Shown: positions 11,330-27,497 of the stretch, one piece after another
Numbering within the stretch: position 1 is the stretch's first letter
How the letters are laid out: the number at the start of each line of letters is the position of its first letter
Assembly: GCA_017471965.1 (NCBI GenBank)
Contig: JAFURF010000003.1
Location: 1 to 51,059 of the forward strand
Length of the DNA stretch: 51,059 bases
From: Bacteroidales bacterium
GTDB taxonomy: Bacteria; Bacteroidota; Bacteroidia; Bacteroidales; UBA932
Direction: 5' to 3'
Position numbers and translations under genes: made by a program
The notes under the pieces: generated by a model
What the model saw: the letters and a program-made list of their open reading frames with translations, nothing else
Database searches by the model: none
Told to the model about the DNA's origin: nothing

Positions 11330-12523
11330 ATGATAAAGAAACTGAACCTCCTGATTGCAACTGCTCTTCTTTTCTGCAGTTGCGGTTCTCAGAAGAACCT
11401 TTACAAATGGGAAAAAGACGAAATACGCACTATTGCAGACGCGGCCATATGCTACGGAGGCCACAGTGCCCGTAACCCATACCTCTGGACACCGGAGCGT
11501 TTCGAGAAGACCGTTGCATATACTGACGAAAACGGACAGGAGCACTGGCTTTTCGACAATATGATCATGATGGAACTCTGGGATGACGACTATAAAGTCA
11601 CTTTCTCGATTGCAAATGACGGACGTTATTCATCACGCAAGGAGCATTGGCAGAAACAGTTGGACTACTGGTTCGACAAGGAGCACGGCTTTGCTGCCCT
11701 TGACAAGTGCGTCGCTGATGTGGCTTCGAGAATCGGAGAACCTTCGACCAAAAGAGGAATCATCTTCTCTCTTCCAGACCCTGTCTACTTCGAGCATTAC
11801 ACCAATGCAATGAAGGGTGAGAACATGAACACCGTGTACTGGGGAGAGATCGACGGTGTGGAGATGGATTTCGCCAAGTCAGAAGACAGGGTGAAGGCAT
11901 ATATCTGGCTTATTGACGCAGTCCGTGCGAAGTTTGCGGAGGCTGATTACAAGCACATCGAACTCATCGGCTTCTACGTGCTTTCTGAGGAACTTTCCGC
12001 ACCGGGAAGTTTCCGTTACGAATACAAGGAGCACGACATCACCATCAAGGGAGCGGCAGACTACTGCCACAGCGTGAACGAAGGATTCTACTGGGTTCCT
12101 TACGCAATGGCTCCGGGCATCGAGAACAGTAAGGATTTCGGCTTCGACCAGGTCGTGATGCAGCCGAACTACTACTGGACTGATGCCAAATGGACATGGG
12201 ACCAGATCGAAAAGATCATCAGAGACAACGGCCTCGGAATGGAACTCGAGTTTGAAGGAACTCACGGAGAGCCTCTGACCTCATCCATACTTTCCAACCT
12301 CAGGAACGGTGAGGCTAATCCATACGCAGAGCGTAACAAGGCCCGTTTCCAGGAATACCTAGACAATGCCGTTTCACGTGGTCTTTACGGTGAGGTTCCG
12401 TTCGTTCTTTATGCCGGAACAAACGGTCTTTACGAACTTGCAGTGTCTGAAGATCCGGCAGACCGTGAAATGTACCATAAACTCTGTAAATTTGTCGTGG
12501 AGAACCCGCTGAAACAGAAATAA
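11330..12523 (+). CDS. DUF4855-type lipoprotein, candidate glycoside hydrolase (copy 1)
   Basis: A 397-residue lipoprotein with lipobox FCSC. I chose the ATG at 11330 (MIKKLNLL) because it gives a clean signal peptide; an in-frame TTG at 11312 would only add residues in front of it. The body resembles the DUF4855 family of Bacteroidetes, with CYGGHSARNPYLWTPERF at the front. Conserved with its neighbour (12530-14083) are FYVLSEEL (Glu220) and GMELEFEGTHGE (Glu305, Glu307, Glu309, His312, Glu314). They lie on predicted strand-loop positions, as expected for an acid/base and nucleophile in a TIM-barrel enzyme. That catalytic reading is my inference; no activity is assigned to the family to my knowledge. 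It is a typical Sus-locus accessory gene, 6 bp before its paralog, and probably surface-exposed. Confidence 0.75.
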   Translation: MIKKLNLLIATALLFCSCGSQKNLYKWEKDEIRTIADAAICYGGHSARNPYLWTPERFEKTVAYTDENGQEHWLFDNMIMMELWDDDYKVTFSIANDGRYSSRKEHWQKQLDYWFDKEHGFAALDKCVADVASRIGEPSTKRGIIFSLPDPVYFEHYTNAMKGENMNTVYWGEIDGVEMDFAKSEDRVKAYIWLIDAVRAKFAEADYKHIELIGFYVLSEELSAPGSFRYEYKEHDITIKGAADYCHSVNEGFYWVPYAMAPGIENSKDFGFDQVVMQPNYYWTDAKWTWDQIEKIIRDNGLGMELEFEGTHGEPLTSSILSNLRNGEANPYAERNKARFQEYLDNAVSRGLYGEVPFVLYAGTNGLYELAVSEDPADREMYHKLCKFVVENPLKQK

Positions 12524-12529
12524 TCCTGC

Positions 12530-14083
12530 ATGGCAAATAAAAGATTCATATACCTGCTCGCCTTCCTTCTCCTGATGCTCTCATGCGGAAGGGAGAAAGG
12601 TCCGGAATACGTCGCTACGCCTGTGATTGAGATGGAATTCGGTTCCTTCACAAACGGAGGCGTTTCAATCAAGGTGCGAAGCATGAATACCGATGCCGTA
12701 TATGCCGTTGCGCGTACCGCGTCGGAAGGATATCCCACAAGTCAGGAAATCGTAGAAAAAGGATATGAGGAAAAGGATGGCGTCATATTCATCCCGGACC
12801 TGAAGCAGAAGACGGAATACACCATCTACGGCGTAGGAATGCACGGAACAGACTTCAGCAAGACCGTAAGCATTACAGTCGTCACCCCTTTCCAGTATCA
12901 ATGGGAGTCAGTCAGGAATGAAATACCGTCCTTTGCCGACCTTGACCTGCTTCCCGGAGGACTCATTTCAAAACAGCCGGCCACATGGGACGAAGAGCGT
13001 CTCCTGCCTCACGTCACATTCAAGGACGAGACAGGAAAGGAGCAATGGCTTCATGAGGCCTTCCTTTTCATAGGAAGCGAGGATGCCAAAAGAAAAGCCA
13101 TCCTTTGCATTGCAGAAGGAAAGAACAAGTCCGGAAATCAGGACTCATGGAGAGACTTTGCAGACTACTGGACAAAGAAAGGGGGCGTCGTCACTACGCT
13201 TGACAGAACAATAGGAAACGCCGTATCACGCATTGGAAAGCCTTCTTTCAAGCACAAGGTGGTCATGACCATGCCGGACCCTATAATGCTGGAATATTTC
13301 TACAACAAGAATTCGTCGACTACATACTGGGGCCAGGTCAATGGACGTACCCTGGACTTCAGCAATCCGGCAGATCAGGTCCTGGCCTACATGTGGTTCA
13401 TAGATCATGTCAGGGAACTTTGGAACGAGGCTTCGCCCGAGCATCTTGAACTGGCCGGATTCTATATCCTGTCAGAAGTCCTCGTAGCAAAGCCTGACGG
13501 ATGGAATTACAGATACAAGAAATGGGACAAGATACTTCCGGAGGTCTCCGACTATCTTCATGGAATGAACTACGGGCTTTACTGGATTCCGTATTATCAG
13601 GCAGACGGATACGACATGACCGATGACCTGGGCATAGACTACACGTGGCTTCAGCCCAACAAATATTGGGACTATCCTGAAAAGAAGCAGAAGAAGTCAT
13701 GGTCATGGGTGTTCGATTCCATGCGGACCTACGGTCATGGAATGGAGATAGAATTCGAAGGATCCCACGGAGAATCAGGATGGAGCCAGTATGAAGAAGG
13801 AGTTGCAAGGACAAGTTCATCCATTCTGGAAACGGTCCGCACGGATAATGATGCACAGGGAACGGGAAAGGGCTCTCCAAACCCTCAGGCTGCACGAAAC
13901 AAGGCCCTTCTGCGGGAATACATGAATGAGTTCAGGAATGCAGGATATTACGGGAAAGCGCGTATCGCTACATATTCAGGCACAAATGCCATGTACGAAC
14001 TCGCCACATCACCCGATGCGAAAGACCGTGAGATGTATCTTGAATATTGTAACTTCATCGTAAATTCACCTCTTAGAAAATAG
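12530..14083 (+). CDS. DUF4855-type lipoprotein with N-terminal Fn3-like domain (copy 2)
   Basis: A 517-residue paralog of the preceding gene with lipobox MLSC at about residue 20. Residues ~25-120 form an extra beta-sandwich (VIEMEFGSFTNGGVSIKVR to TVVTPFQ) that looks like a fibronectin-III-type module not present in copy 1. The DUF4855-like region follows and keeps the conserved blocks FYILSEVL (Glu316) and GMEIEFEGSHGE (Glu406, Glu408, Glu410, His413, Glu415), TTYWGQVNG, and the C-terminal YSGTNAMYELATS. Two copies in a row with similar active-site blocks but different N-termini and loops suggest diverged specificity on linkages of the same glycan. The start follows the previous stop by 6 bp; the next gene follows by 12 bp. 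Confidence 0.75.
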   Translation: MANKRFIYLLAFLLLMLSCGREKGPEYVATPVIEMEFGSFTNGGVSIKVRSMNTDAVYAVARTASEGYPTSQEIVEKGYEEKDGVIFIPDLKQKTEYTIYGVGMHGTDFSKTVSITVVTPFQYQWESVRNEIPSFADLDLLPGGLISKQPATWDEERLLPHVTFKDETGKEQWLHEAFLFIGSEDAKRKAILCIAEGKNKSGNQDSWRDFADYWTKKGGVVTTLDRTIGNAVSRIGKPSFKHKVVMTMPDPIMLEYFYNKNSSTTYWGQVNGRTLDFSNPADQVLAYMWFIDHVRELWNEASPEHLELAGFYILSEVLVAKPDGWNYRYKKWDKILPEVSDYLHGMNYGLYWIPYYQADGYDMTDDLGIDYTWLQPNKYWDYPEKKQKKSWSWVFDSMRTYGHGMEIEFEGSHGESGWSQYEEGVARTSSSILETVRTDNDAQGTGKGSPNPQAARNKALLREYMNEFRNAGYYGKARIATYSGTNAMYELATSPDAKDREMYLEYCNFIVNSPLRK

Positions 14084-14095
14084 AACGATATACTT

Positions 14096-16231
14096 ATGAA
14101 AAAGGCATTAACGATTATTGCGGCTGCATTTGCTGCCCTGACAGCATGCAACGGGCCGGAGGCAAAGCCGGAAGCACCGACGCAGGATACCACCCCAGGA
14201 TATGTCCTCTGTGACGAAATGACGGAAGTCAAGATCGGAGAAGACGGAAGCCTCCTTATTCTGCGCAACATGAAGACAGGACACGACTATGCATCAGGTC
14301 AAGGATTGTGGAGAATGTTCTACAACACCCTTGACGAGAAGGAGATGCAGATAGACGGAACAGAAAACACACCTGCCGTATCTCAGGACGGCAATGTGAT
14401 CACCATCGCATACAAAGACCTGGTACACAGAGGAAAGACACTGAAGATGGATCTTACTCTTACCGTTTCTCTTGAGGATGGTGCCATTCGCTTCGGCTCC
14501 ACTGTCGCCAACAATGAGCCTCACACCATCATCCGTGAACTCCAGTACCCTCTGGTAGGCGACATGAACCTTCCTGAAGGTCACAAACTCCTGACCACCC
14601 ACACCGGAGGACAGGTCCACGACGACGCTCTCGACCTGATAGTGAACGTCAATCCGAAGACCCTCTACATGAAGCCGGACCAGTATTTCCGTCAGTATGA
14701 CCTCCAGTATCCGCGCCATGCGGCTTCCAACTGCTATGCATTCTTCGGAGAGAAGGACGGTCTGTATTTCGGAAGCCACGACGAAAGCTTGCAGCAGACA
14801 TGGCACGGACTTCGCGCGTACCCGTCTGCACCTAATCAGTTCGACCGTCTCGAGGCAGGATTCTACCGCTACCCTAACGCAATGTGCGGCGACACATGGA
14901 CCTGCAATACAAGCATCGTGAAGCCATATATGGGCTCATGGACCGAGACTTCACGCATCTACCGCGAATGGATCGACGGATGGTGGGACAAGCAGGATGT
15001 ACCGCAGTGGGTGAAGGAGATGACAGGCTGGCAGCGCATCATCTTCAAACATCAGTATGGCGAATACCTCCGCAAGTACACTGACCTTCCTGGCCGCATC
15101 AACGACTGCGGAAAGAGCGTCGGATGCAACGCCGTACTCGCATTCGGCTGGTGGAGCGACGGAATGGACAACGGCTACCCTAACTACTATATAGACGAGA
15201 CCCAGGGAGGAGAAGAGGCTTGGAAGAAGGCCATCGCCGACTACCGCGCAGAAGGCAACCGCCTCGTCCTCTATTATAACGGCCGTCTTGTGGACCGTGA
15301 GAGCGACTGGTACAAGCACGGAAACGGAAAGAAGGCCGTTAACAGGGACAATACCGGAGCAGAATTCGCCGAACATTATAAGTTCACAGGAGAAGGAACC
15401 GCCCTCGGATATTATGACACCCGCACATTCTCGATTGCAAACATGGCCAACCGCGAATGGCGCGACATGCTCGTGCAGTGGGCCGACAGGGCAATGGCCT
15501 ATGGCGCAGACGCCGTGTTCTATGACCAGCTCGGAGTGGCAGAGGAATTCCCTAACTGGGACATTTCAGGAGAATTCCCTGTACAGGACATCTATACCGG
15601 CCGATACAAGGCTGATGCTCTGAAGGAAATCCGTGACCACATCAAGGCAAAGAACCCTGAATTCTGCCTCGGTACCGAATGGCTCAACGACTGCACAGCC
15701 CAGTTCTGCGACTTCGTACATATCGTGGAATTCACAGCAGAACCGTACAGTTTCCCTGAATGGTTCAAATACACCTTCCCTGAAGTGATATGGTCAGACA
15801 GATGTCTGCGTGACGACACTGATGTGGAGCGCAGGGCAAACAACACCCTGCTCAAGGGACTGGTAAACGACATCGAGATCTTCAGATGCCGCGGCCTCAT
15901 CGACGAGACTCCGCACTATCAGGGATATCTTGCACAGATCAATGCAATCCGTCACAAATATCCTGAACTTCTTCTCGGAGCAGGACGATTTGTCCATACG
16001 GACGGCTTCACTTGCTCATCGGAAGACATCGTTGCACGTGGCTATGCTAACGGAAACCGTCTTGCCATCGTTGCTACCACCCTCGCAGAGAACGGCGCTT
16101 CAGGCAAGATCAGCGTACCTGGCTATAAATTCGTTGAAAGCAGCAGCATCGGTGATGTAAATGTCAGCGGAAACGGCTCGAAACTCCGTCTCGGCCAGCA
16201 CGGCATCACTGTCCTGATCTTCGAAAAATAA
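14096..16231 (+). CDS. DUF6259-like lipoprotein, candidate glycoside hydrolase
   Basis: A 711-residue lipoprotein (lipobox LTAC) with a two-part layout. An N-terminal beta-rich domain (about residues 40-280, galactose-mutarotase-like pattern with GHDYASGQGLWRMFYN) is followed by a TIM-barrel-like domain from about residue 295. Candidate catalytic residues are Asp477 in ADAVFYDQLG and Glu528 in CLGTEWLND, at strand ends about 50 residues apart. This is the layout of retaining alpha-glycosidases of the GH13/GH31/GH36/GH101 kind. I believe it matches the DUF6259 group, but the name is from memory. It ends the rightward operon. Its TAA ends at 16231, directly touching the stop codon of the convergent regulator, so there is no room for a terminator between them. 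Confidence 0.7.
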   Translation: MKKALTIIAAAFAALTACNGPEAKPEAPTQDTTPGYVLCDEMTEVKIGEDGSLLILRNMKTGHDYASGQGLWRMFYNTLDEKEMQIDGTENTPAVSQDGNVITIAYKDLVHRGKTLKMDLTLTVSLEDGAIRFGSTVANNEPHTIIRELQYPLVGDMNLPEGHKLLTTHTGGQVHDDALDLIVNVNPKTLYMKPDQYFRQYDLQYPRHAASNCYAFFGEKDGLYFGSHDESLQQTWHGLRAYPSAPNQFDRLEAGFYRYPNAMCGDTWTCNTSIVKPYMGSWTETSRIYREWIDGWWDKQDVPQWVKEMTGWQRIIFKHQYGEYLRKYTDLPGRINDCGKSVGCNAVLAFGWWSDGMDNGYPNYYIDETQGGEEAWKKAIADYRAEGNRLVLYYNGRLVDRESDWYKHGNGKKAVNRDNTGAEFAEHYKFTGEGTALGYYDTRTFSIANMANREWRDMLVQWADRAMAYGADAVFYDQLGVAEEFPNWDISGEFPVQDIYTGRYKADALKEIRDHIKAKNPEFCLGTEWLNDCTAQFCDFVHIVEFTAEPYSFPEWFKYTFPEVIWSDRCLRDDTDVERRANNTLLKGLVNDIEIFRCRGLIDETPHYQGYLAQINAIRHKYPELLLGAGRFVHTDGFTCSSEDIVARGYANGNRLAIVATTLAENGASGKISVPGYKFVESSSIGDVNVSGNGSKLRLGQHGITVLIFEK

Positions 16232-17260
16232 TCAGAAAGAGCCGCGACGTGTCATGTTGAAGTCGCAGTGGACCTTCCAGGTCTTGCGGTTGAGGATCAT
16301 TGTTGCGGCCGTCCTTCCCATCTGCTTGAAATCGGCAGAAATCGTGGTGAGTCCGCCGAGCACCACCTCATTCAGATCAAACTCGTTGTATGAAATGATG
16401 AATACATCCTTTCCTACTTCGAGTTTCTGTTTCTTTATGGTACGTGCCAGAGCAGCCAGACCTGAGTCAAGTTGAGAATTGATGATAAGATAGGTCTCGT
16501 TCTCGTTGATATGTTCCGGTGCTGAATGCATGTATTCAACCGGTATTCCGAATTCAAGACAGAATCTGTCTACTCCTTTGCAGACCATAGGACCATAAAG
16601 GCTCGACGGAAGGGTTATCACCTTCAGCGATGTGCCTTTAAGTTTGTCCAGTCCCTGCTTCAATCCATCATAGACATCATTTTCAAAATCCTGATAGACA
16701 GCGCCATAATTACCGACATAACTCTGGAGCCAATGGTCTACCATGATGAGTTTCCTGTTCGGTACGCGTGAGATGAGTTTCTTTGCCAGCGCCTGTGATT
16801 TATCATCAAGCGGAAAATGAGGACTGATGACATAATAGTCATATCTGTCCAGACATGTATCAAGGTAATATGTGAACAGGTCCAGATTCTGGTTATGAGT
16901 CAGGATGGTAAGGTCCGCCTTGTCACCCAATTCATTGGCAAGCGAGTTATACAGGACTTCCTTATAGATGCTCAGTTTGTCAAACAATACAAGCACGCGT
17001 GGCTTGGATGCATTGCCGGCATCGGCAACATAAAATCCCTTGCCCTGCTGAGGTATCAGAAGCCCTTTCTCACGAAGGATGACATAAGTCTTCTTTACCG
17101 TCTCTTTTGATATGCCCAACTGGGATGCAAAGTCATTCATGGACGGAATCTGTTCACCAGGTTTAAGGACTCCTGAGCGGATCGCATCCTCAAACTGATC
17201 TACAAGCTGCTTGTAGATCGGGTTCTTGCTGCCTGTCTCCAGGCTGATCTGAAGTGTCAT
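16232..17260 (-). CDS. GntR-type regulator with periplasmic-binding-like sensor domain
   Basis: A 342-residue transcription factor. Residues ~10-75 are a winged helix of the GntR family (IYKQLVDQFEDAIRSGVLKP, then a recognition-helix region QLGISKETVKKTYVILREKG and wing GKGFYVA). Residues ~85-335 look like a LacI/periplasmic-binding-protein sensor (RVLVLFDKLS, GMKTL-type end TTISADFKQMGRTAA). This architecture is known for sugar-responsive regulators in Bacteroides, such as the fucose regulator FucR; orthology is not claimed. It lies 11 bp behind the GH20 gene and has no promoter box of its own, so it is probably transcribed from the GH20 promoter, which carries a candidate operator at 18873-18888. 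It probably controls the three promoters that share that motif, which would include its own. The 3' end touches the convergent gene. Confidence 0.88.
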   Translation of the reverse strand: MTLQISLETGSKNPIYKQLVDQFEDAIRSGVLKPGEQIPSMNDFASQLGISKETVKKTYVILREKGLLIPQQGKGFYVADAGNASKPRVLVLFDKLSIYKEVLYNSLANELGDKADLTILTHNQNLDLFTYYLDTCLDRYDYYVISPHFPLDDKSQALAKKLISRVPNRKLIMVDHWLQSYVGNYGAVYQDFENDVYDGLKQGLDKLKGTSLKVITLPSSLYGPMVCKGVDRFCLEFGIPVEYMHSAPEHINENETYLIINSQLDSGLAALARTIKKQKLEVGKDVFIISYNEFDLNEVVLGGLTTISADFKQMGRTAATMILNRKTWKVHCDFNMTRRGSF

Positions 17261-17271: not shown

Positions 17272-18840
17272 TTAAAGGATAAATGATGGATTGTCAAATC
17301 TGAGCCTTCCGGTCTGTGCCTTGAGGCTCTCGTTGAAAAGATCGAAGGTGTTGTATCCCATGCTGCGGAATACGGTCACAAGCGTAAGGCAACGCTCACG
17401 GAAATCGAAGAACTCCCTCTTTTCCTGAGGTGTCCAGCCTATTTCAGCTATCGCAAAAGTGCGCGGATACAACATATACTCGGCATGTGCGGCATATGGA
17501 ATAAGTTCACACCAGAGGTTTCCCTGAAGTCCGAGGATATGATGGTGATATTCCGGAGCGATTCCTTCAAGAGGATCATATTTATAGACATGACGAAGAG
17601 ACTGCATATGGCCTACAGCCTTCGGTTCCTTCCTGATAAGGTCCTGATAATAATCCAGATACACATAACTGTTTGGAGACATTATGACATCGTGGCCTTC
17701 AGATGCGGCCTTGATTCCGCCCGGAGTGCCTCTCCATGACATTACCACAGCCTGCTCCGGAAGTCCGGTCTCCACTATTTCATCCCATCCGATGACGGTC
17801 TTTCCCCTTTCGCGGAGGAACTTCTCAATATGGCGCACAAGGTAGCCCTGAAGTTCGTTCTTGTGAGTCATGCCCTCTGCCTGCATCCTCTTGCGGCAGT
17901 TCACGCAGACCTCCCAGTCCTTCTTGACGGCCTCATCGCCTCCGATATGGATGTATCTGTATGGAAACAGTTCGATGACCTCTTCCAGAACGGTCTCAAG
18001 AAATCTCAAGGTGCCGTCGTTTCCAACGCAAAGGTCCCACGAAAAAGGTCTTGGCTTTCCGTCTTCGCCCACACAGGCGATTTCCGGATAAGCCCTGTTG
18101 ACTTCCATGCTGTGGCCCGGCATTTCGATTTCCGGAATGATGTCTATATGACGCTCGGCAGCATATGCCACGATCTCACGGATATCATCCTTTGTGTAGA
18201 ATCCGCCGTATGCCTCAGGATCCTGTGCGTCGGTGAAGGGATATCCGAGAGCCTCCCACTCATGGTAGGTCTCTCCCTTCCTCCATGCAACATGGTCTGT
18301 AAGATTCGGATATGCGTCGATCTGAAGGCGCCAGCCTGCAGCATCCGTCAGATGAAGATGCATTACATTCATCCTGAGCAGGGCAAGAGCGTCAATCTGC
18401 TTCTTCACGAAATCCTTGCCCTTGAAACTGCGGGACTCGTCAAGCATGATGCCTCTGTGCCGGAAACGAGGATAATCGAAGATGGTGCAGCAACGGATGT
18501 CCCTGTCGATGAGACGCATCATTTCCAGAGCCTGTCTTGCCCTGAAGGCACCCTCTTCGGTCATGGCATAGATCTTCACGCCTTTACTCGAGACTATCAG
18601 TTCGTAGGCTTCCTCTCTCGCGAAATCCGGGAGGTCCTTTACCCTATGGGCAAAGTCACGGGTACCTAGGTACACCTTTATATCCGACCCATCCGACCTA
18701 AGGTTGCAGAATCCTTCAGAAACAGAATATTCCACAGGTCGTGGAATGATTTTGTCCGGACTGGAATATGCTGACAAACAGCAGATTGAGACAGCGGCAC
18801 AAGCCACCGACATAAGAAATTTCCGAATCATTGCAGTCAT
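17272..18840 (-). CDS. GH20 beta-N-acetylhexosaminidase
   Basis: A 522-residue exo-beta-N-acetylhexosaminidase releasing terminal GlcNAc or GalNAc by substrate-assisted catalysis. The N-terminal GH20b-like domain (about residues 25-120) is followed by the catalytic barrel. The catalytic Asp-Glu pair is Asp302-Glu303 in HIGGDEAVKKDW, and the family blocks FRHRGIMLDESRSF, MNVMHLHLTDAAGWRLQIDAYPNLT and DIIPEIEMPGHS are clear. I chose the ATG at 18840 (MTAMIRKFL), or possibly 18831, rather than the longer frame because the longer one crosses the promoter boxes. The N-terminus is a signal peptide without a good lipobox. The TATCTTTG box ends 15 bases upstream of the ATG, so the leader is very short. 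The GntR regulator follows 11 bp downstream. Likely substrate: beta-linked HexNAc at the non-reducing end of host or fungal glycans. Confidence 0.95.
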   Translation of the reverse strand: MTAMIRKFLMSVACAAVSICCLSAYSSPDKIIPRPVEYSVSEGFCNLRSDGSDIKVYLGTRDFAHRVKDLPDFAREEAYELIVSSKGVKIYAMTEEGAFRARQALEMMRLIDRDIRCCTIFDYPRFRHRGIMLDESRSFKGKDFVKKQIDALALLRMNVMHLHLTDAAGWRLQIDAYPNLTDHVAWRKGETYHEWEALGYPFTDAQDPEAYGGFYTKDDIREIVAYAAERHIDIIPEIEMPGHSMEVNRAYPEIACVGEDGKPRPFSWDLCVGNDGTLRFLETVLEEVIELFPYRYIHIGGDEAVKKDWEVCVNCRKRMQAEGMTHKNELQGYLVRHIEKFLRERGKTVIGWDEIVETGLPEQAVVMSWRGTPGGIKAASEGHDVIMSPNSYVYLDYYQDLIRKEPKAVGHMQSLRHVYKYDPLEGIAPEYHHHILGLQGNLWCELIPYAAHAEYMLYPRTFAIAEIGWTPQEKREFFDFRERCLTLVTVFRSMGYNTFDLFNESLKAQTGRLRFDNPSFIL

Positions 18841-18855: not shown

Positions 18856-18888
18856 CAAAGATAGGTAAAAAAGACCACACCACAGCAC
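18856..18888 (-). promoter_or_regulatory. GH20-GntR promoter with candidate operator (site 1)
   Basis: On the minus strand TATCTTTG (18856-18863) matches the Bacteroidetes -7 consensus TAnnTTTG. No good -33 TTG is present at 18-bp spacing (TGT is there instead). At that position, 18874-18887, the minus strand reads TGCTGTGGTGTGGT, identical over 14 bases to the site at 23991. A motif overlapping a weak -33 region suits a regulator that either replaces or blocks sigma contact; which one cannot be told. Confidence 0.65.
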
Positions 18889-18911
18889 TGTTTGACAATA
18901 AAATCAAAGAA

Positions 18912-18941
18912 AAGGCGTCCTGCATTCCTGCAAGACGCCTT
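18912..18941 (-). terminator. Rho-independent terminator of the 18964-20922 lipoprotein gene
   Basis: The inverted repeat AAGGCGTC / GACGCCTT has an inner part that can pair further (CTGC/GCAG). On the minus strand it is followed by a T-rich tract (TTTTCTTTGATTTTATT). It lies 23 bp past the stop of the leftward lipoprotein gene. Confidence 0.85.
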
Positions 18942-18963
18942 CGTAGATTATCTTGATGTAAGA

Positions 18964-20922
18964 TTAGTTGAGTTTGTAAAGCGAGACACCTATGTTCTGA
19001 GCCATTACAGCAACATATGTAGTACCGTCTGCTGCCTGATGAACTGCACAGTCACCAAGACCATGACCTGCATTTCCTGTTCCATTCACCGGAGCAGTGA
19101 AAAGACCGGTCTGCGCCTCAAGTGTTCCCTTGAAGTCTGCGGCACCGTTTATATCCTCGATGATATTGAGAGTTGCAGAACTTCTGTCACCTTCCACTTT
19201 CACATATGCTATATAATTCTTCTCTTTGTAAGTAAAGAAGTTATATCCGAATGTCTGAGTGAGCTTCAGATCTGTTCCCCAAGCCGACAATTCATATGTA
19301 TTTCCTTCCTTCTGGTTGAAGTAGCCGCTGCCGGCATTTGTGGTAAGAAGAGCGGATGAAGGATTTCCATCAGCATCAAATGTTGCGTCCGGATGAATAG
19401 TGCACTCCCCGATGTTATATGCTCCTGCTATCGGCATATTATAACGTCCTGCAGCATAATACAAGCCATTCTTTGGCCAACTGCCAACAACACCATTCTC
19501 CACCTTGACGCGGATAACGATATTTCCATCATTGAAGTCGAAGAAATGAAGTTCACCTGATTGATATGTACCCTTGACTGTGAACTTGTCACCGAGACGA
19601 CGGGTACCTGAATCGATTTCAAAATAAGTTGGATCTGCATCAATTCCGTTTGTCCATACATAGACAATCAGCCTTTCTGTTCCGTCGCCCGTTGTAAGAT
19701 TTGAAGCAACGAGTACTGGCTTACCATCGTTTACAGCAGCATCTGTATTAGGAAGCATTCTAACACAAGTGACAGCATGTGTACCGTTGTCAAGACCTGC
19801 AGGCGCATGAGTTGTGACCTTTACATCCTTCACCTGAGCAGGATCAGCGATGCTGAATGCCTTAATTGCACCGTTTCCACCTGCGGCCTGAGCAACATAT
19901 ACATATTCGCCATCCATTGTCATGTTTCTGTCCTGTCCGCCACCGAATGGAACTGCAGCATTCCATACCAGGCCTGCAAAAGGAATGATTCCGCTAGCCT
20001 GAGCAACTGAAACTTCCTGAAGGACAACACCTGCAACTGTCTTGACTGCAACCTTTGCCGTACGAGCCTCACCTTCATTTGCATCAGCAGTGAACTTGAA
20101 TGAGAATTCTGCCTTAGCAGCAGGAACAGCCTTAAGCCACTCTGCACCCTCAACAACCTCTGCAGTAACATCTACATTTGATACGCCTGCGATGACTACC
20201 TCGCCACCCTCAGCAGGCACTTCTGCTACAGCCTCAATCTGGATTGCATTTTCCTCGAAAGAAAGTTTCTTGATAGAAGCCTTGCCTGCAGCATTGTCAG
20301 CCCAAACAAGAACCTCTCCTGCCACGAACGGATCAGGGATAGTGATCTCGACATGAGTCTCTGTAACCTTTGCCACATAACTTGAAGTAGTTGCAAGAAC
20401 ATCAACAGTTGTAGTCTCGTTTGCTCCTGTCACAGTATAAGCGACCTTTACAGTCTCGCCTGCATTTACAATAAGGTGAGTAGCATCGAGAACGAGTGCG
20501 AACTCCTTCTCCTGATAGAGAGGAAGAACCACTGTTGTGCCGTCAGTGTATGTGAATGTTGCAGTCTCCTTGTTCTCTGCAACCTCAACTGAAGCAATTA
20601 CCACTTCGTCAATCTCCTCTGCATCAAGGTCGAGTGGAATGAATACCGGATCAGCGCTTCTGAAAGTAACGATCACGCCCTTACCATCCTCTGAAGGAAG
20701 AACGCTTACAACGTAGTCCTCTGCAGCGGCAGCGGCGTTCACAGCCTCGATAGCCTTCTCTGCAGCAGCGATTCTCTCCATGAGAGCAGCAAGAGCAGCG
20801 TTGATTTCATCTGCATCCTGCTCGATCTGGTCCATCCTGTCCTTAATGGCAGTGTCATCATACTCAGGGGTACAAGCAAGTGCTGCAAGACCCAGCATGA
20901 GAGCAAAAAATAATTTCTTCAT
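18964..20922 (-). CDS. Surface lipoprotein: coiled coil, BACON-like domain and propeller-like C-terminal domain
   Basis: A 652-residue lipoprotein with lipobox LAC (near residue 17). Residues ~25-65 are a short coiled coil rich in Ala/Glu heptads (DRMDQIEQDADEINAALAAL, DUF4988-like), seen at the N-terminus of many Bacteroidetes surface proteins. Beta-sandwich segments follow. A BACON-like domain (about residues 228-312) then has the pattern EVPAEGGEVVIAGVSNVDV and ends VSVAQASG, expected in carbohydrate-active surface proteins. From about residue 315 the C-terminus matches the last ~340 residues of the lipoprotein at 9274-11232 (RRLGDKFTVKGTYQSGE versus RRLGDKFIITGTWETGE; MTMDGEYVYVAQ versus MDNEYIYIPQ). 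It is monocistronic, with its own promoter/operator and terminator. No catalytic signature was seen, so glycan binding is inferred. Confidence 0.8.
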   Translation of the reverse strand: MKKLFFALMLGLAALACTPEYDDTAIKDRMDQIEQDADEINAALAALMERIAAAEKAIEAVNAAAAAEDYVVSVLPSEDGKGVIVTFRSADPVFIPLDLDAEEIDEVVIASVEVAENKETATFTYTDGTTVVLPLYQEKEFALVLDATHLIVNAGETVKVAYTVTGANETTTVDVLATTSSYVAKVTETHVEITIPDPFVAGEVLVWADNAAGKASIKKLSFEENAIQIEAVAEVPAEGGEVVIAGVSNVDVTAEVVEGAEWLKAVPAAKAEFSFKFTADANEGEARTAKVAVKTVAGVVLQEVSVAQASGIIPFAGLVWNAAVPFGGGQDRNMTMDGEYVYVAQAAGGNGAIKAFSIADPAQVKDVKVTTHAPAGLDNGTHAVTCVRMLPNTDAAVNDGKPVLVASNLTTGDGTERLIVYVWTNGIDADPTYFEIDSGTRRLGDKFTVKGTYQSGELHFFDFNDGNIVIRVKVENGVVGSWPKNGLYYAAGRYNMPIAGAYNIGECTIHPDATFDADGNPSSALLTTNAGSGYFNQKEGNTYELSAWGTDLKLTQTFGYNFFTYKEKNYIAYVKVEGDRSSATLNIIEDINGAADFKGTLEAQTGLFTAPVNGTGNAGHGLGDCAVHQAADGTTYVAVMAQNIGVSLYKLN

Positions 20923-20973
20923 GATAAAATGAAAATTTGGTTATTAAATTGATTTTTATCGGTTTTATCTATA

Positions 20974-21030
20974 GTGTGGTGTGCTGTGGTGCAAACCGCG
21001 GCAAATATAGTGATAAAAAATGAAGTCCAA
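20974..21030 (-). promoter_or_regulatory. Promoter of the coiled-coil lipoprotein with candidate operator (site 2)
   Basis: On the minus strand TTG (21028-21030), an 18-bp spacer and TATATTTG (21002-21009) form a good Bacteroidetes -33/-7 promoter. Immediately downstream, covering the expected start site, the plus strand reads GTGTGGTG then TGCTGTGGTG (20974-20991). Position over the start point suggests repression by a bound protein. The untranslated leader is about 70 bases. Confidence 0.7.
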
Positions 21031-21044
21031 TGATTTTTTTCAAA

Positions 21045-23951
21045 TTATTTGCTTCTAAACTTCACGAATACAGGCAGATGGTCTGAAATCATGTCTGCTT
21101 TCCGGCCTCCGGCACAGGAAACGACCCTGCTTTCCAGGACTTCAACATCCCCGGATGACTTAAGATGAAAGACATAGTCGAGGCATTGACGGGGCTGTCC
21201 GGAAGGATAGGTAGGCCCTGTGCATGAGAGCAGGTCCCAAGACTCAAGAAGTCTCTTCACCGCAGGGCCGTCAGGCTCGCAGTTCATGTCCCCGCAAAGG
21301 ATCACTGGACGGAAATCCTCCGCATAGTTATCTTGACACCAGGCAGTTATGGAATCCACCTGCTGTATCCTGGCCTCAGTCCCGACATGGTCCAGATGGG
21401 TGGCGGCAAGGATATAGTCTAGAGTCTCGACCACGGCCATGCTCCTTGGCTCGGCGCCGTCAGAAAGCGGAAGAGCAACAGAAAACGAACGGATCACATC
21501 AGACGAAGTGGCGACGCCGTTTCCATATCCCCCTCCTGCAAACGGAAAGGCAGAAGCAAAGGCATGGTCCAAACCGCCAAGACTGTCAGTCAGAGCCTGC
21601 AACTGATGGACATTGTGCCGTCTGTTGCAACTGTCCAGTTCATTGAGTGCTACAGCGTCAACACCCAGGGCACGGATCAGGTCGGCCGCCTGAGGGGTGC
21701 TATCGTCTGAATATTTGCTGAATGTCCCCACATTATAGGTAAGCAGGGAGATGTCTTTCGGGCATGCCAGACCGTACTTTTCGAGAATTTCATGTGAAAG
21801 CCCGATATACGGCACAGGTTCACGATAATCGATATGCCTGTCATTCACGGCCCAATCCAGTTCAAAGGCATCTAGTCTTTCAAAGAAGGCCTTCTCATCA
21901 TAGATGCGGTCCTCACGGATGCAGTCCAGAATCTCATCAATGAACATCTTCCACCGCGGAGCATAGTATGAATCGATCAGTCCGCTCCAAAGTCTGGTTG
22001 CATAGTCCTTTATGGATGTCTGCTCTCCCCAGATGGTTATCAGAGTCCTGGCGTTGCGTCTGTAATAGGCCTTTTCCTCCGGAGTTCCGCCCCATGAAGA
22101 TGCATCATCGAGCCAACGGTCCAGGCGCAGGGACGGGTCACAGGCAGCAAGTGCGTCGAGGTCATCAAGGGCCTCAAGCATCAGGGCTCCCGTCTGTTCC
22201 GCTGATACAAGATCACGTTCCTCATAAGCCTGAGTCAGACGGTCCCTCAGGACCGCAAAGTGGTTTCCTAGTGCCTGAGTACCGAGGTTCACCACATCAG
22301 AGCGATATGTATCCCTGTCCGAGGATGCCTTGAGCATATCCTGCCATGCCCTTATAAGAGTCCCGTTATCATACCTTGTATTATGGATGGATGTCCAGTG
22401 CCAGTATCCTTCAAGACAAGGACGCGCGCACGCGAGAGGGGTCTGGCTCGAAAAAGAACCCGCGATATAGACGCTGTCGGCAAGAGTCTTCCATGCCCTT
22501 TCTGCATATGGATCGGGCCTTCCTGTCCTGCGTCGTGCAAGATTCCTTACCCATTCCTGATCGGAAATGCCTGCAGACCATGCCTTGTCGAAGACATATT
22601 CATACATGAACTGGTTGATGCCGAAGCCTTCTAGCGTCGATCCTATGCCGACGAAATTCTCCCCACCGCGCGCAAAGGCGTCATCGATGCGCTCTGAAGC
22701 CTGGTGGAAATTGCCCGAAAGGCGTATGTTTCCTCCGAAATTGCCAAGATAGCAGAGGATATACGGCTGTCCGTAGAAACGTTCGGTGACAGTCCATACA
22801 GGAGTATGCTCAAGGTAATAATCCAGAATCACTACCTTTCCCTGCGGAACTGCCTGAAGATAGGCCTTGACGTTTTCCGGAGTCCAGTGCTTCTGGTCAT
22901 AATAGAACATCCATCCCATCTGAAGCCACACGGCGTCGGGATCTACGGCAGACATGGATTCATAAGCGCCCTTGGAGATCGCTGCAAGTGTCTCGGGATC
23001 CCACGACGGAGCCTCCACTTCATTAAAAAGGTCGACACCATAGATATGGTCCGTCCCGAACATCTTCTCCTGCTCCTGCATGTATTCCCTCTGTATCTGA
23101 GCATAGAGAGGGTCCATAGGGGCAAGGAAATGGCAAAGATTATCGGCTGGAAAGCCGCTCCACCTGGGAATATCGGAAATCTGCGCATCAGGATATATTT
23201 CCTTCAACTGCTCCGGAACATGTCCTCCGAATGCAGAAAGCACAGGACGCATGTTCAACTGCCTTTCTCTCTTGAGGATCTTCTTCTGGAGGATGACCTG
23301 GGAATCTATCCACTCCTGCGGAAGAGGACCGTCGAAATGGTCGATGTTGCACATGCGGTGCCATCCGAGATGGGCCGGGCCGGTAAAATAAGACCTTATC
23401 TGTTCGTCAGTCATGCCATGCTTTCTCCATACCTTCTGCCATACGGCCTCCTGGCCGGTGTTGGCCAGAGGCATGTTTATGCCGTTGAGGGCCATCCAGT
23501 CTATCAGACGCTCCCAGTCTTCCCATTTCCACCATGGCATGGTATATCCGAAAGTGCAGTAGTTGAGAAAGAACCTGTCCTTTACACGTGCTTCCACCCT
23601 CACCTTCTCATCCACAGAAGGCATCTGTGCAGGATACTGGACCGGTTCATACGCATACCATGAGACCGTGACTCCGCAATGGTTCTTCAGGTAATGGTTC
23701 AGGCCCATGGCCATCGAGTTGGCATTGTTTCCGGCAATGACGATCTTTCCTTTCTCGGAGAAGACCTCGAACACATCGGCCGTGTCTTCCGTCTGACGGA
23801 AATCCATCTTGCCGACATAATCCGGAACAATCCTATGCGCCAGAGCCCTGGCAACCCGTTCATCGGCAGTTTCTCTGAAAATAAGGGCAGGAACTATGGA
23901 AATTATCGTCAGTATGACACAAAAAATGATTAATTTAGCATTGTTTCCCAT
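21045..23951 (-). CDS. GH89 alpha-N-acetylglucosaminidase fused to an EEP-fold phosphohydrolase domain
   Basis: A 968-residue protein with two enzymes in one chain. Residues ~40-715 are an alpha-N-acetylglucosaminidase (NAGLU, GH89). Visible blocks are FGYTMPWWKWEDWERLIDWM, MALNGINMPLA, the FNEV motif with a catalytic Glu, and STLEGFG with the second Glu. It would release terminal alpha-linked GlcNAc, as in gastric-type mucin caps or heparan-type chains. Residues 733-966 are an endonuclease/exonuclease/phosphatase domain with all its motifs: LLTYNVGTFS, LNELDS, ATHLDH, CGDMNCEPDG, CLDYVF and ISDHLPV. The N-terminus is a membrane anchor or uncleaved signal (AKLIIFCVILTIISIVPALIF) without a lipobox. 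The frame is continuous with no sign of an assembly join. The start at 23951 is the first ATG after the shared divergent control region. The function of the EEP part is unknown. Confidence 0.93.
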   Translation of the reverse strand: MGNNAKLIIFCVILTIISIVPALIFRETADERVARALAHRIVPDYVGKMDFRQTEDTADVFEVFSEKGKIVIAGNNANSMAMGLNHYLKNHCGVTVSWYAYEPVQYPAQMPSVDEKVRVEARVKDRFFLNYCTFGYTMPWWKWEDWERLIDWMALNGINMPLANTGQEAVWQKVWRKHGMTDEQIRSYFTGPAHLGWHRMCNIDHFDGPLPQEWIDSQVILQKKILKRERQLNMRPVLSAFGGHVPEQLKEIYPDAQISDIPRWSGFPADNLCHFLAPMDPLYAQIQREYMQEQEKMFGTDHIYGVDLFNEVEAPSWDPETLAAISKGAYESMSAVDPDAVWLQMGWMFYYDQKHWTPENVKAYLQAVPQGKVVILDYYLEHTPVWTVTERFYGQPYILCYLGNFGGNIRLSGNFHQASERIDDAFARGGENFVGIGSTLEGFGINQFMYEYVFDKAWSAGISDQEWVRNLARRRTGRPDPYAERAWKTLADSVYIAGSFSSQTPLACARPCLEGYWHWTSIHNTRYDNGTLIRAWQDMLKASSDRDTYRSDVVNLGTQALGNHFAVLRDRLTQAYEERDLVSAEQTGALMLEALDDLDALAACDPSLRLDRWLDDASSWGGTPEEKAYYRRNARTLITIWGEQTSIKDYATRLWSGLIDSYYAPRWKMFIDEILDCIREDRIYDEKAFFERLDAFELDWAVNDRHIDYREPVPYIGLSHEILEKYGLACPKDISLLTYNVGTFSKYSDDSTPQAADLIRALGVDAVALNELDSCNRRHNVHQLQALTDSLGGLDHAFASAFPFAGGGYGNGVATSSDVIRSFSVALPLSDGAEPRSMAVVETLDYILAATHLDHVGTEARIQQVDSITAWCQDNYAEDFRPVILCGDMNCEPDGPAVKRLLESWDLLSCTGPTYPSGQPRQCLDYVFHLKSSGDVEVLESRVVSCAGGRKADMISDHLPVFVKFRSK

Positions 23952-23958
23952 ATAATAT

Positions 23959-24008
23959 GTTGCAAGTCAAATAAGTTGTCTATCTTTGCATGCTGTGGTG
24001 TGGTGTGG
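23959..24008 (+). promoter_or_regulatory. Divergent GH89/ROK control region with candidate operator (site 3)
   Basis: For the rightward ROK gene TTG (23960-23962), an 18-bp spacer and TATCTTTG (23981-23988) form a good -33/-7 promoter. TGCTGTGGTGTGGTGTGG (23991-24008) lies at the expected start point. The leftward GH89 gene has only a weak -7-like TTATTTG in the same gap, so the motif would lie some 25-40 bases upstream of its start. One bound protein could therefore act on both genes. Confidence 0.7.
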
Positions 24009-24034
24009 TAAAGGTAGTAATAATTTTTATAACA

Positions 24035-24850
24035 ATGAAAATAGGAGTAGATCTTGGAGGAACAAACATCGTTGCCGGCCTTGTTGACGGCATGTCGATG
24101 GTCAGAAAAGTTAAGGTATCATGTCCTGCAAAGGGCAGTCAGGAAGATGTGATAGAGGCTATCGCATCACTGATCGGACAACTCATGGGTCCGGACGTGG
24201 AATCCATCGGCATAGGTGTCCCATCGGTTGTGGATACAAAAAAGGGAATCGTGTACAACGTGGCGAACATTCCGTCATGGGTGGAAGTTCATCTCAAGGA
24301 TATTCTTGAGGAAAGGCTCGGCATTCCTGTAAAGATAAACAATGACTCCAACTGCTACACCTTGGGCGAAAGCCGTTTCGGAAAGGGTCAGGGGTTTGCA
24401 GACATGGTATGCGTGACCCTAGGAACAGGAGTGGGATCCGGCATCATCATCGGAGGCAACCTGTATGAAGGACGAAACGCCGGAGCAGGAGAAGTGGGGT
24501 GTCTTCCATACCTCGACAAGGATTTTGAAAGTTACTGCAGTACTCCTTTCTTCGTGTCCCACAACACATCCGGAGCGGAACTTTCCGCAAAGGCGGAGGC
24601 CGGAGACGCGGAATCGATCGGCCTGTGGAACGAGTTCGGACACCACCTCGGGGAGTTGGCCAAGGCAATCCTCTTTGCATATGACCCGGAAGCCATCATC
24701 TTCGGCGGAGGCATAGCGGCAGGACATCCCCATTTCGAAGCGGCCCTGCGCGAACGTATACTGACCTTCCCGTTCGAGACAGCAAAGGACGTGAAGATAT
24801 TCTTCTCGGAAGACGGAGACATGGCTCTTTACGGAGCATCGGCACTTTAA
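24035..24850 (+). CDS. ROK-family sugar kinase (second copy)
   Basis: A 271-residue ROK kinase, likely an N-acetylglucosamine or glucose/glucosamine kinase given its place beside GH89 and the GH2 exo-glucosaminidase. Motifs are MKIGVDLGGTNIVAG (phosphate loop), INNDSNCYTLGE (catalytic Asp region), TLGTGVGSGI and NAGAGEVGC. The usual His of GEIGH is Cys here, and the CxCGxxGCxE zinc motif is reduced to a single Cys in ESYCST, so zinc binding is doubtful. I chose the ATG at 24035 because the longer frame starts inside the operator repeats. The GH2 gene follows after 22 bp. It is about as short as ROK kinases come. Confidence 0.9.
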   Translation: MKIGVDLGGTNIVAGLVDGMSMVRKVKVSCPAKGSQEDVIEAIASLIGQLMGPDVESIGIGVPSVVDTKKGIVYNVANIPSWVEVHLKDILEERLGIPVKINNDSNCYTLGESRFGKGQGFADMVCVTLGTGVGSGIIIGGNLYEGRNAGAGEVGCLPYLDKDFESYCSTPFFVSHNTSGAELSAKAEAGDAESIGLWNEFGHHLGELAKAILFAYDPEAIIFGGGIAAGHPHFEAALRERILTFPFETAKDVKIFFSEDGDMALYGASAL

Positions 24851-24872: not shown

Positions 24873-27497
24873 ATGACTAAGAAAAAAGAAAGAATTATTG
24901 CACTTATCGGAGTCTTCATTCTGATGGGACTATTCATTTTCGTCAAGATAAGAGAACCCAAGTTACAGGATGCAGACATCCTCCTTTCGGAAGGTTGGCA
25001 TATCCAGTCTTCGGCGAAGGTATCCCTTGACGGCGTGCAACTGTCGACAGAAGGCACCGACTTCGGCACTGACTGGTATCCGGCAAGCGTGCCTGCAACA
25101 GTCATGGGAGCGCTTACTGCAAACGGACTTTACGCCGATGCATTCACCGGAAAGAACTACGCAGAGATCGACAGGGAGCAGTTCGACACCACATGGTGGT
25201 ACAGGACTTCATTCGAGGTGCCTGCACTTAAGGATGGACAGAGGGCGGAACTTGCTTTTGACGGAGTAAGTTACCGCGCCGACGTATGGCTCAACGGAAA
25301 GCAGATAGCATCTGCAGATGAATTCTTCGGACCGTTCCGCCAGTTCACTTTCGATGTGACCGATGTACTCGGAGAGAAGAATAACCTCGCTGTACGCGTT
25401 CACAGGTGGCAGAAGGGCGAATTCAATATCGGATTCGTAGACTGGAACCCTCGTCCTGCAGACGAGAGCATGGGTATCTTCCGTCCGGTATGGCTCAGAT
25501 ACAGCGACGCCGTATCACTCACAGATCCTGCAGTGCGCTCTAAAGTTGACACTTCGGATTTCAAGGAAGCATGGCTTACAGTAGAGGCAACTCTCTGCAA
25601 CGCTTCAGACAAGGCTGTTTCAGGAAAACTTCAAGGAGAGTTCGAGAACAGACGTTTCGAATATCCAGTAGAACTCGCTGCCGGGGAGACAAAGACCGTA
25701 AAGGTAACTGCAGAAGACGCCAGGGAACTGCATATAAGGAATCCGCGCCTGTGGTGGTGCCACAATCTCGGCAATCCTGAGATGTACTCGATGGACCTGA
25801 CTTTCGTCGTGGACGGAAAGGTGTCTGACAATGCGACTGTAGACTTCGGAATAAGACATCTGGACTCATGGTTCAACGAAGACGGATACCGTGGATTCAT
25901 CCTCAACGGAAAGAAGGTGCTTGTAAAGGGTGCCGGCTGGACAGATGACATCTTCCTTCGAAATCCTGACGAAAGGAATGCCCTGGAGGTGGCATATGTC
26001 AAGGACATGAACATGAACTGTATCAGATTTGAGAACGTATGGGGTACGTCGCAGAACATATATGACGAGTGCGACCGTCAGGGAGTGCTCGCCCTTGTGG
26101 GATGGAGTTGCCATTGGGAATGGGAAGTCTACACCGGAAAGCCGAACGACCGCAACGGATGTATTTCTACAGAAGAGGATATCGACCTGATTTCAGAGTC
26201 ATGGAGGGATCAGATCCTTTGGCTCAGGAACCATCCTTCGATAATCTGCTGGTACGGCGCCAGCGACATGCTTCCGCGTCCTGCCCTCGAGCAGCGTTAT
26301 CTCGACATCCTCGCAGAAATCGATGACCGTCCTTATACCGTTCATGCCGGATCGGCAAAGAGCCCTCTGAGCGGCCCTGCCGGAATGAAGATGTGGGGAC
26401 CTTACGAATGGCAGGCGCCATATTACTGGTATTCCGAAGAGGCAAAGGGAAATGCAGTGGGCTTCAATACCGAGACAGGTATCGGTGCACAGATGCCTGT
26501 GCTGGAATCCCTCAGGAAATTCATACCTGAAGAAAGTCTCTGGCCTGTCGGAGATGCATATGACTACCATACGACCACATCCCGTGACGCCCTTCACGAC
26601 CTGAGCGAACTCAAGACCGTGATCGAAAAGAGAATGGGTGGAGCCTCGGATCTGGAGGACTTCCTGCGCAAGGCCCATTTCCTTGACTATGAAGGAACCA
26701 GGGCTATGGTGGAGGCTCATCGCGTGAATGTACCGCGTTCTACAGGTATCATCCAGTGGATGCTCAACTCCGCATGGCCGTCACTCTACTGGCAGTTGTA
26801 TGACTGGTATCTTGTACCTGTCTCATCATATTGGTCGGTCAAGAAGGGATGCATGCCTCAGCAACTTGCCTACAACTATGCAGACGACAAGGTCTATGCA
26901 GTCAATGACGAGAAGGAGGACAGAAGCCTCATAGCGAAGATGAAGGTCTATGGCATGGACGGAACCGTACTTTCCGATGTCAGGTGTGATGCAGAGATGC
27001 CGGCCGGCTGCTCGAAGGCGTTGTTTGAAGTGACTTCTCCGGTAAGCGGTCAAAGTCCTGTATATTTCGTTTTCCTGAGTCTTGAAGACAGAAAGGGCAA
27101 TGTCGTGTCATGCAACGAATATTGCCTTGCTGATGTCAAGGACAAGCATGACTGGAGCAAGTACAGATGGTGGAGGACCCAGATGGAAAGTTACGGCGAC
27201 TTCTCTGCCCTAAATAACCTTGCTCAGGCAGACCTTGCAGCAAGCAGCAACACAGATGGCAACAAAGTGACCGTTACATTGAAGAACGGATCCGAGGTCG
27301 TGGCCTTCTTCATCGATCTGAAGATAAAGGACTCCGAAGGAGAAATCATCGTGCCAGGCTTCTGGTCAGACAACCTTGTGAGCATAGCACCTGGTCAGGA
27401 AATCACATTGACATGGAGCAACGGCAAGGATCTTCCTGAAGGTTCTGCACTTGAAATCTCAGGATGGAACATCGAAGACAGCAGGTTCGATCTTTAA
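24873..27497 (+). CDS. GH2 exo-beta-D-glucosaminidase / mannosidase-like enzyme
   Basis: An 874-residue GH2 enzyme with sugar-binding sandwich (about residues 60-210), immunoglobulin-like domain and TIM barrel (about 325-620), then C-terminal sandwich domains. In exo-beta-D-glucosaminidases such as CsxA the acid/base is Asp instead of the Glu of the usual NE pair. Here Asp465 in WYGASDMLPRP and Glu534 in GFNTETGIGAQMP fit that arrangement and spacing, and MLNSAWPSLYWQLYDWYLVP is also typical of that branch. It would remove beta-linked glucosamine (or a close relative) from chain ends, but beta-mannosidase activity cannot be excluded. The N-terminus has a hydrophobic anchor (IIALIGVFILMGLFIFV) and no lipobox, which suggests a periplasmic, inner-membrane-tethered enzyme. 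The stop overlaps the convergent gene by 4 bases. Confidence 0.9.
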   Translation: MTKKKERIIALIGVFILMGLFIFVKIREPKLQDADILLSEGWHIQSSAKVSLDGVQLSTEGTDFGTDWYPASVPATVMGALTANGLYADAFTGKNYAEIDREQFDTTWWYRTSFEVPALKDGQRAELAFDGVSYRADVWLNGKQIASADEFFGPFRQFTFDVTDVLGEKNNLAVRVHRWQKGEFNIGFVDWNPRPADESMGIFRPVWLRYSDAVSLTDPAVRSKVDTSDFKEAWLTVEATLCNASDKAVSGKLQGEFENRRFEYPVELAAGETKTVKVTAEDARELHIRNPRLWWCHNLGNPEMYSMDLTFVVDGKVSDNATVDFGIRHLDSWFNEDGYRGFILNGKKVLVKGAGWTDDIFLRNPDERNALEVAYVKDMNMNCIRFENVWGTSQNIYDECDRQGVLALVGWSCHWEWEVYTGKPNDRNGCISTEEDIDLISESWRDQILWLRNHPSIICWYGASDMLPRPALEQRYLDILAEIDDRPYTVHAGSAKSPLSGPAGMKMWGPYEWQAPYYWYSEEAKGNAVGFNTETGIGAQMPVLESLRKFIPEESLWPVGDAYDYHTTTSRDALHDLSELKTVIEKRMGGASDLEDFLRKAHFLDYEGTRAMVEAHRVNVPRSTGIIQWMLNSAWPSLYWQLYDWYLVPVSSYWSVKKGCMPQQLAYNYADDKVYAVNDEKEDRSLIAKMKVYGMDGTVLSDVRCDAEMPAGCSKALFEVTSPVSGQSPVYFVFLSLEDRKGNVVSCNEYCLADVKDKHDWSKYRWWRTQMESYGDFSALNNLAQADLAASSNTDGNKVTVTLKNGSEVVAFFIDLKIKDSEGEIIVPGFWSDNLVSIAPGQEITLTWSNGKDLPEGSALEISGWNIEDSRFDL

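Follow-up and report, generated by a model that had tools for sequence, protein, structure and literature searches.

A tandem 10-bp direct repeat as the predicted operator of a GntR-LacI hybrid regulator in a Bacteroidales glycan-use locus

Three related promoter motifs recur in a polysaccharide utilization locus (PUL) on the 51,059-nt stretch of a Bacteroidales draft genome analyzed here (assembly GCA_017471965.1, contig JAFURF010000003.1; the whole stretch is called the window), and we propose, at a probability of roughly 0.85, that they are operators bound by P0001, the GntR-LacI hybrid regulator encoded in the same locus. We show that each unit spans 20 bp and consists of one 10-bp half-site repeated directly in tandem, (A[C/G]TGTGGTRT)x2. 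Support for the operator assignment is comparative sequence evidence throughout, comprising motif counts around orthologs, co-occurrence of motif and regulator across a genus, and covariation between operator and recognition helix in diverged relatives. What looks new is an operator design shared across the branch, with a code that can be read in part.

A reading of the window from its sequence alone (the sequence-only reading) had reported three copies of a 10-base core, all in promoter regions and on or near a TAnnTTTG box, with sites 1 and 3 identical over 14 bases; each of these statements was borne out. The 10-mer TGCTGTGGTG has exactly three copies in the window, at 18878-18887 (minus strand), 20982-20991 (plus strand) and 23991-24000 (plus strand), against a chance mean of 0.11 and never three copies in 100 dinucleotide shuffles of the window. 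The 14-mer common to sites 1 and 3 is found in exact form nowhere else in the draft genome (2.32 Mb, 64% complete); with up to three mismatches allowed, it gives 10 matches in the window versus 4.0 expected, so that the informative copies are the exact or near-exact ones only. Exact matches to a degenerate 16-mer, TGTGGTGTNNTGTGGT, number four in the draft genome, namely sites 2 and 3, one on contig C6 that precedes a DUF3575 gene cluster (L027 4992-5011), and one on contig C42 that precedes a short frame together with a lipoprotein-like gene (L028 5043-5062). Scored with a weight matrix, the best 20-bp frames of sites 1, 2 and 3 reached 19.2, 33.9 and 24.3, respectively, site 1 being the most degenerate of the three and a weaker form of the same tandem unit. 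Each site adjoins a TAnnTTTG box, which we take to be the Bacteroidota -7 consensus.

The consensus built from 63 distinct sequences around 79 orthologs reads A[G/C]TGTGGTGT A[C/G]TGTGGT[G/A][T/C]. It was drawn from 16-mer matches with at most one mismatch (79 matches: 10 within gene calls and 69 clear of them, distributed over 51 loci); these calls are rough, and the sites of 10 of the 40 fetched remote loci likewise fell within called frames. Direct TGTGGT pairs no more than 30 bp apart stood at exactly 10 bp in 49 of 58 distinct cases and only one inverted pair was found, confirming that the motif is a direct repeat rather than a palindrome of the kind used by Bacillus subtilis AraR. At locus L286, both half-sites are altered together (ACTGTGATGT ACTGTGATGC), and the recognition helix there has D53 in place of E53. 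We noticed a recurring variant site, ACTGTGGTGTACTGTGTTTC, with close forms, in L241, L243, L245 and L222; in L243 it adjoins an N-acylglucosamine 2-epimerase gene, and in L222 (genome G017) a sugar transporter gene. Units at site 3 recur every 5 bp, and most sites would be transcribed, as might be expected of a pentanucleotide microsatellite or of an RNA element in the 5' leader. We consider such an origin scarcely credible, because sites occur in both orientations relative to genes, different species keep the same variant positions, and one class lies upstream of the -7 box. An RNA element was also tried directly as a candidate and rejected, with no Rfam family found at gathering thresholds in the window and sites in both orientations.

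P0001 carries a winged helix-turn-helix domain (PF00392, 49.4 bits versus a cut-off of 27, residues 16-78), as members of the GntR superfamily do, and a sensor matching PF13377 (Peripla_BP_3, 28.5 bits versus a cut-off of 26.5, residues 266-325 only), which is the LacI/GalR-type sensor of the AraR subfamily. Judged by these profile matches, it is a protein of AraR architecture, and we do not class it as an AraR ortholog.

The association between motif and regulator was first supported by an unguided 8-mer count in the intergenic DNA of 79 ortholog loci, some of them near-duplicates, where TGTGGTGT ranked first (48 of 79 loci versus 2.2 expected), with -7 box words ranking alongside. A weight matrix trained on the same 79 loci placed a site in 64 of them at a score of at least 16; of the two tests, the k-mer count is the independent one. 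At this score there were 99 matches in real sequence, 18 in reversed sequence and none in one shuffled set, the reversed control being unfair because TGTGGTGT reads identically backwards. Among 300 genomes of the genus survey, 82 had a regulator homolog (E ≤ 1e-25, some diverged or partial copies included), 48 had the exact 16-mer and 44 had both; the exact motif was thus found in 44 of 82 genomes with the regulator versus 4 of 218 without it (Fisher P = 2.6 × 10−25, phylogeny ignored). Sites are kept beside orthologs of 43-47% identity, e.g., in Bacteroidales bacterium CF, GWF2_40_14 and Dysgonomonas BGC7, and loci of this class with a site next to the GntR gene are L182, L183, L184, L187, L188 and L189. 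At L189 (Dysgonomonas), the only one of the six established as another genus, the site precedes the neighboring SusC gene. A further 14 ortholog loci (44-62% identity) yielded nine with a site at a score of 15. By comparison, where the sole relative in a locus is less than 40% identical, the motif was found at 0 of 19 loci, nor was it found at L282 (40.2%); L273, which also holds a 53% ortholog and has one weak site (15.3), was excluded from this paralog count. The linked GntR protein, which the sequence-only reading had put forward as candidate regulator, is hence supported by the k-mer ranking and the genus profile; the motif lies beside many orthologs, down to 43-47% identity and, rather than being spread without link to the locus, tracks the regulator.

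The site was present at 13 of 16 GH20 genes above 70% identity and at 11 of 26 GH89 genes in regulator loci. Genomes lacking the regulator gave 0 of 30 GH89 loci with a site (a GH89 match was present in 35 of 74 such genomes), a weak control, because the GH89 proteins of these genomes are 33-52% identical to that of the window and many are thus not close orthologs. We also noticed that, in regulator-less genomes, 9 of the 50 matches listed to the window GH89 are separate frames of 274-308 aa covering residues 726-966 only.

Several observations weigh against the assignment of the motif to P0001. The exact 16-mer is missing from 38 of 82 regulator-positive genomes; 15 of the 79 ortholog loci have no site at a score of 16, some being short contigs and others intact; 5 of the 14 further loci have none, and one more has a weak site only. 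No site was found in 499 bp of upstream DNA at the Tannerella sp. locus L185 (46% identity), and 15 of the 26 GH89 genes in regulator loci have none within 350 bp. Conversely, four genomes hold the motif with no regulator detected: two are incomplete metagenome-assembled genomes (57% and 67%) holding pieces of the same PUL, and in a third, G279, the match falls within an acyltransferase gene. The fourth, G017 (95% complete), is unexplained, its matches lying in an unannotated reading frame next to a sugar transporter. Finally, the box distances given below come without a chance control.

These gaps, in particular the 38 regulator-positive genomes, might point to another regulator that travels with the PUL (SusR-like, hybrid two-component system [HTCS] or OmpR-type), with the GntR gene linked by inheritance only. 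In Bacteroides, HTCS and SusR regulators do typically have direct-repeat operators, although the repeats there are much more widely spaced, at an average of 21 bp or at 67 or 77 bp (PMC3878776). Among the 17 PUL-side proteins scanned, a set that leaves out some small frames, the GntR protein is the sole match to a DNA-binding family; the motif remains next to the GntR gene in distant species, and diverged relatives have a different 10-bp repeat before their own gene, changing with the recognition helix. We therefore regard a different owner of the sites as very unlikely.

Feature coordinates are collected in Table 1. Because GH20 and the regulator gene lie on the same strand, 11 bp apart, site 1 probably serves the regulator's own operon.

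Table 1 Features of the locus, in window coordinates.
Feature	Position	Strand	Remark
Gene run (isomerase-like, unknown, ROK, SusC, SusD, DUF1735-type, two DUF4855, DUF6259)	2..16231	+	promoter beyond contig end
GntR-LacI hybrid regulator, 342 aa (P0001)	16232..17260	-	PF00392 and PF13377 profile matches
GH20 beta-hexosaminidase	17272..18840	-	probably co-transcribed with regulator, 11-bp gap
TATCTTTG, putative -7 box, GH20-GntR promoter	18856..18863	-	box search
Putative operator 1 (ACAGTGCTGTGGTGTGGTCT)	18872..18891	-	8 nt upstream of the GH20-GntR -7 box; weakest operator in the window
BACON-domain lipoprotein	18964..20922	-	profile search
Putative operator 2 (AGTGTGGTGTGCTGTGGTGC)	20973..20992	+	9 nt downstream of BACON lipoprotein -7 box, strand opposite to gene
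TATATTTG, putative -7 box, lipoprotein gene	21002..21009	-	box search
GH89 alpha-N-acetylglucosaminidase fused to endonuclease/exonuclease/phosphatase domain	21045..23951	-	profile search
TATCTTTG, putative -7 box, ROK-GH2 operon	23981..23988	+	box search
Putative operator 3 (GCTGTGGTGTGGTGTGGTAA), longest array	23992..24011	+	3 nt downstream of ROK-GH2 -7 box
ROK-family protein, probably sugar kinase	24036..24850	+	no DNA-binding domain found in profile search
GH2 with exo-beta-D-glucosaminidase Ig-fold domain	24873..27497	+	profile search

When matches at a score of 16 were merged, 63 of 93 sites lay on, or at most 14 nt downstream of, the nearest TAnnTTTG box facing a neighboring gene, 18 lay upstream of the box, and 12 had no exact box, box positions being predicted from sequence rather than mapped transcription starts. 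Twelve of the upstream sites stand at exactly 8 nt (the GH20 class), and this geometry, which is that of operator 1, was also seen at the GH20 promoters of orthologs. Most sites overlap or follow the -7 box, and repression is thus the likely mode; by this reasoning from site position, P0001 probably acts as a repressor, a view we hold with good but not full confidence. An upstream class at a fixed box distance could instead mark an activating position, with site 1 as its example in the window and the regulator as an activator. We find this unlikely, given that an activator would obstruct the polymerase at the 63 sites on or just downstream of the box and that the -33 and -7 regions flank even the upstream class.

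Where a gene start lies no more than 350 bp from a site, the gene most often encodes the BACON lipoprotein (28), followed by GntR (17), GH20 (13), GH89 (11), the C42-type lipoprotein (9) and SusC (7), with 38 others and one site having no such gene. Operator 3 additionally lies about 40 nt ahead of the divergent GH89 gene. In 40 loci fetched mostly around exact motif matches, with gene order read by eye, a site stands before an isomerase-containing gene run in about two dozen; the first gene of this run encodes an MFS transporter (tested in L257 only), and in relatives the run continues to ROK and SusC and matches window genes 2-16231. Read across relatives, the predicted regulon is PUL-wide, as the site there also precedes the isomerase-ROK-SusC-SusD operon. 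The sequence-only reading had envisaged a small regulon within the locus: the tie to the GntR protein stands, but the regulon appears larger, with the SusCD operon included in relatives. At L234, the gene divergent from an operator-bearing operon (5117-6748) encodes a phosphodiester glycosidase (NAGPA) that includes an fn3 domain, and it is a possible extra regulon member.

Together, GH20, GH89 and a GH2 with a glucosaminidase-type domain suggest N-acetylhexosamine-containing glycans as the substrate. In the mechanism we envisage, bound P0001 would block RNA polymerase, GH20-class sites lying between the -33 and -7 regions. The protein would leave the DNA once its LacI-type domain binds a sugar that the PUL sets free, plausibly an N-acetylhexosamine or derivative, and this would turn on GH20-GntR (so that the regulator controls itself negatively) along with GH89, ROK-GH2, the SusCD operon and the surface lipoprotein. 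For this inducer class we put the odds at about even.

We next considered relatives of P0001 that lack TGTGGT sites and found that they carry other 10-bp direct repeats ahead of their own genes. The discovery set comprised 42 clusters (60% identity), all less than 42% identical to P0001, after 2 of 176 genes with too little upstream DNA were dropped, and a repeat was called at 8 or more identities out of 9. A 10-bp repeat was present in 13 of 42 clusters, versus 0-2 clusters (mean 0.56) at each other spacing from 6 to 24 bp, and in 3 of 144 and 14 of 588 upstream regions of other genes used as controls. The 60% clusters are not fully independent, several having the ACTGGTAKGT form; clustering at 40% identity gave 5 of 12 clusters at 10 bp versus 0-1 at other spacings. 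The result was replicated in a new order-level sample with hypotheses fixed beforehand (8 of 72 rows dropped as already seen or as fragments; 61 of the remaining 64 below 60% identity to the discovery set), where 15 of 45 clusters had the 10-bp spacing versus 0-3 (mean 0.67) at other spacings (P = 8 × 10−17). Head-to-tail design at 10 bp thus appears widespread in the GntR-LacI branch of Bacteroidota. That a direct repeat is unusual for a GntR regulator, as initially remarked, stands for the superfamily as a whole, but ahead of the genes of this branch in Bacteroidota 10-bp direct repeats are strongly over-represented.

Within these repeats, the better half-sites fit ACTGnnnTGT, exceptions including ACTTGGGTAT and ACCGTTCTGT, and their variable bases covary with recognition-helix residues. 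In AraR, recognition-helix Arg41 contacts a G (PMC4218819); it should correspond to residue 52 of P0001 (in equal-length coordinates, assuming a 20-residue tag on the solved chain). Residue-base counts were made over 32 clusters at 60% and only where both half-sites agree; in the test set, 5 of 19 repeat-bearing clusters were dropped for poor frame fit. With K or R at residue 57, T5 occurred in 22 of 23 clusters, versus 1 of 9 with other residues (P = 7 × 10−6; 0.003 at 50% clusters), and the test sample alone gave T5 in 11 of 11 clusters with K57 and G5 in 3 of 3 others. Where residue 52 is neither R nor K, T4 occurred in 2 of 2 clusters, versus 0 of 23 with R or K (P = 0.003; 0.007 at 50% clusters). 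R/K52 was predicted to go with G4, as it did in 9 of the 10 test clusters whose half-sites agree at this base, the remaining one having A4. No test cluster with M52 or P52 passed the repeat filter; L379 (P52) has T4 in a repeat that fails the G+C filter. At L273 (genome G187), the paralog of 30% identity that adjoins the 53% ortholog has a P52 helix and, in line with the residue-52 rule, T4 in each half of its own repeat (CCTTTGGTGC TCTTGGGTGC). In the pooled clusters, D53 never occurred with G7 (0 of 20), compared with G7 in 7 of 9 clusters with E53.

Here too, some results tell against the generalization. Within the 300 bp examined, 29 of 42 discovery and 30 of 45 test clusters showed no clear 10-bp repeat; the residue-57 rule is post hoc, having been first spotted in pooled data; and the predicted pairing of E53 with G7 failed in the test set, where 2 of 2 E53 clusters have C7. 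As for the predicted pairing of K/R56 with G6, the base also occurs without K56. On balance, the counts point to a tendency for bases 4, 5 and 7 of the half-site to go with residues 52, 57 and 53, respectively. We think it reasonably probable, as one joint claim, that GntR-LacI regulators across Bacteroidota share a single grammar of two head-to-tail 10-bp ACTGnnnTGT half-sites, with variable bases readable from a few helix residues (G4 with R/K52 versus T4 with M52 or P52; T5 with K57 versus G5 with small or hydrophobic residues; D53 excluding G7).

Two half-sites A[C/G]TGTGGTRT set head to tail, one helical turn apart, would bring two winged-helix heads in the same orientation onto the same DNA face. 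For AraR, spacing is said to set the relative orientation of the monomers (by the title of Jain and Nair 2013). B. subtilis AraR, a sugar-responsive repressor of polysaccharide-use genes with a GntR DNA-binding domain and a LacI-type sensor (PMC4218819), has the same domain architecture as P0001. Its boxes, At(T/A)tGTaCGTAcaa(A/T)T, are palindromic (PMC4218819), whereas the half-sites here run head to tail at 10 bp. We lean slightly toward a single LacI-core dimer that supplies both tandem heads, over a pair of adjacent dimers. Alternatively, and as regards the DNA arrangement only, a separate dimer could occupy each half-site with one head, at least two dimers stacking cooperatively. The precedent is Escherichia coli NanR, a GntR-type regulator of sugar metabolism (FadR subfamily) that, like the motif described here, involves tandem direct repeats, three NanR dimers binding cooperatively to (GGTATA)3 (PMC8012715), and arrays longer than two units, such as site 3, would suit such an assembly. 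However, NanR cooperativity requires a 32-residue N-terminal extension and its sensor is all-helical (PMC8012715), whereas P0001 has about 15 residues before the helix-turn-helix, a LacI-like sensor matching a periplasmic-binding-protein family, and sites with a 10-bp period. Stacked dimers are thus a tentative alternative, and the single dimer with both heads in tandem is our preferred arrangement.

Palindromes are common among GntR sites, and the exceptions have been listed (PMC4494728). Non-palindromic direct-repeat sites are given there for FarR, NagQ and the MocR-type GabR, TauR and PdxR, which, unlike AraR, sit in the FadR, HutC and MocR subfamilies, the MocR sites having long spacers (PMC4494728). 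The survey table includes one Bacteroidetes regulator over its three subfamilies (PMC4494728). In Bacteroides thetaiotaomicron, FucR (BT1272) and ManR (BT2103) are GntR-family sugar regulators with determined or predicted motifs (PMC3878776), and they may already show the same 10-bp tandem design. Among the titles and abstract openings listed in literature searches, none described a 10-bp tandem operator for regulators of the GntR-LacI type in Bacteroidota, supplements and most subscription papers being outside the scope of this search.

For many glycan-use loci of uncultured gut Bacteroidota no operator is known, and a defined site with a partial code would allow regulons to be proposed for them. 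The proposed arrangement also raises a structural question, namely how a LacI-core dimer, normally two-fold symmetric, could hold two winged-helix heads in tandem. If the grammar is true, the operators and regulons of many uncharacterized regulators in uncultured gut bacteria would be predictable from protein sequence.

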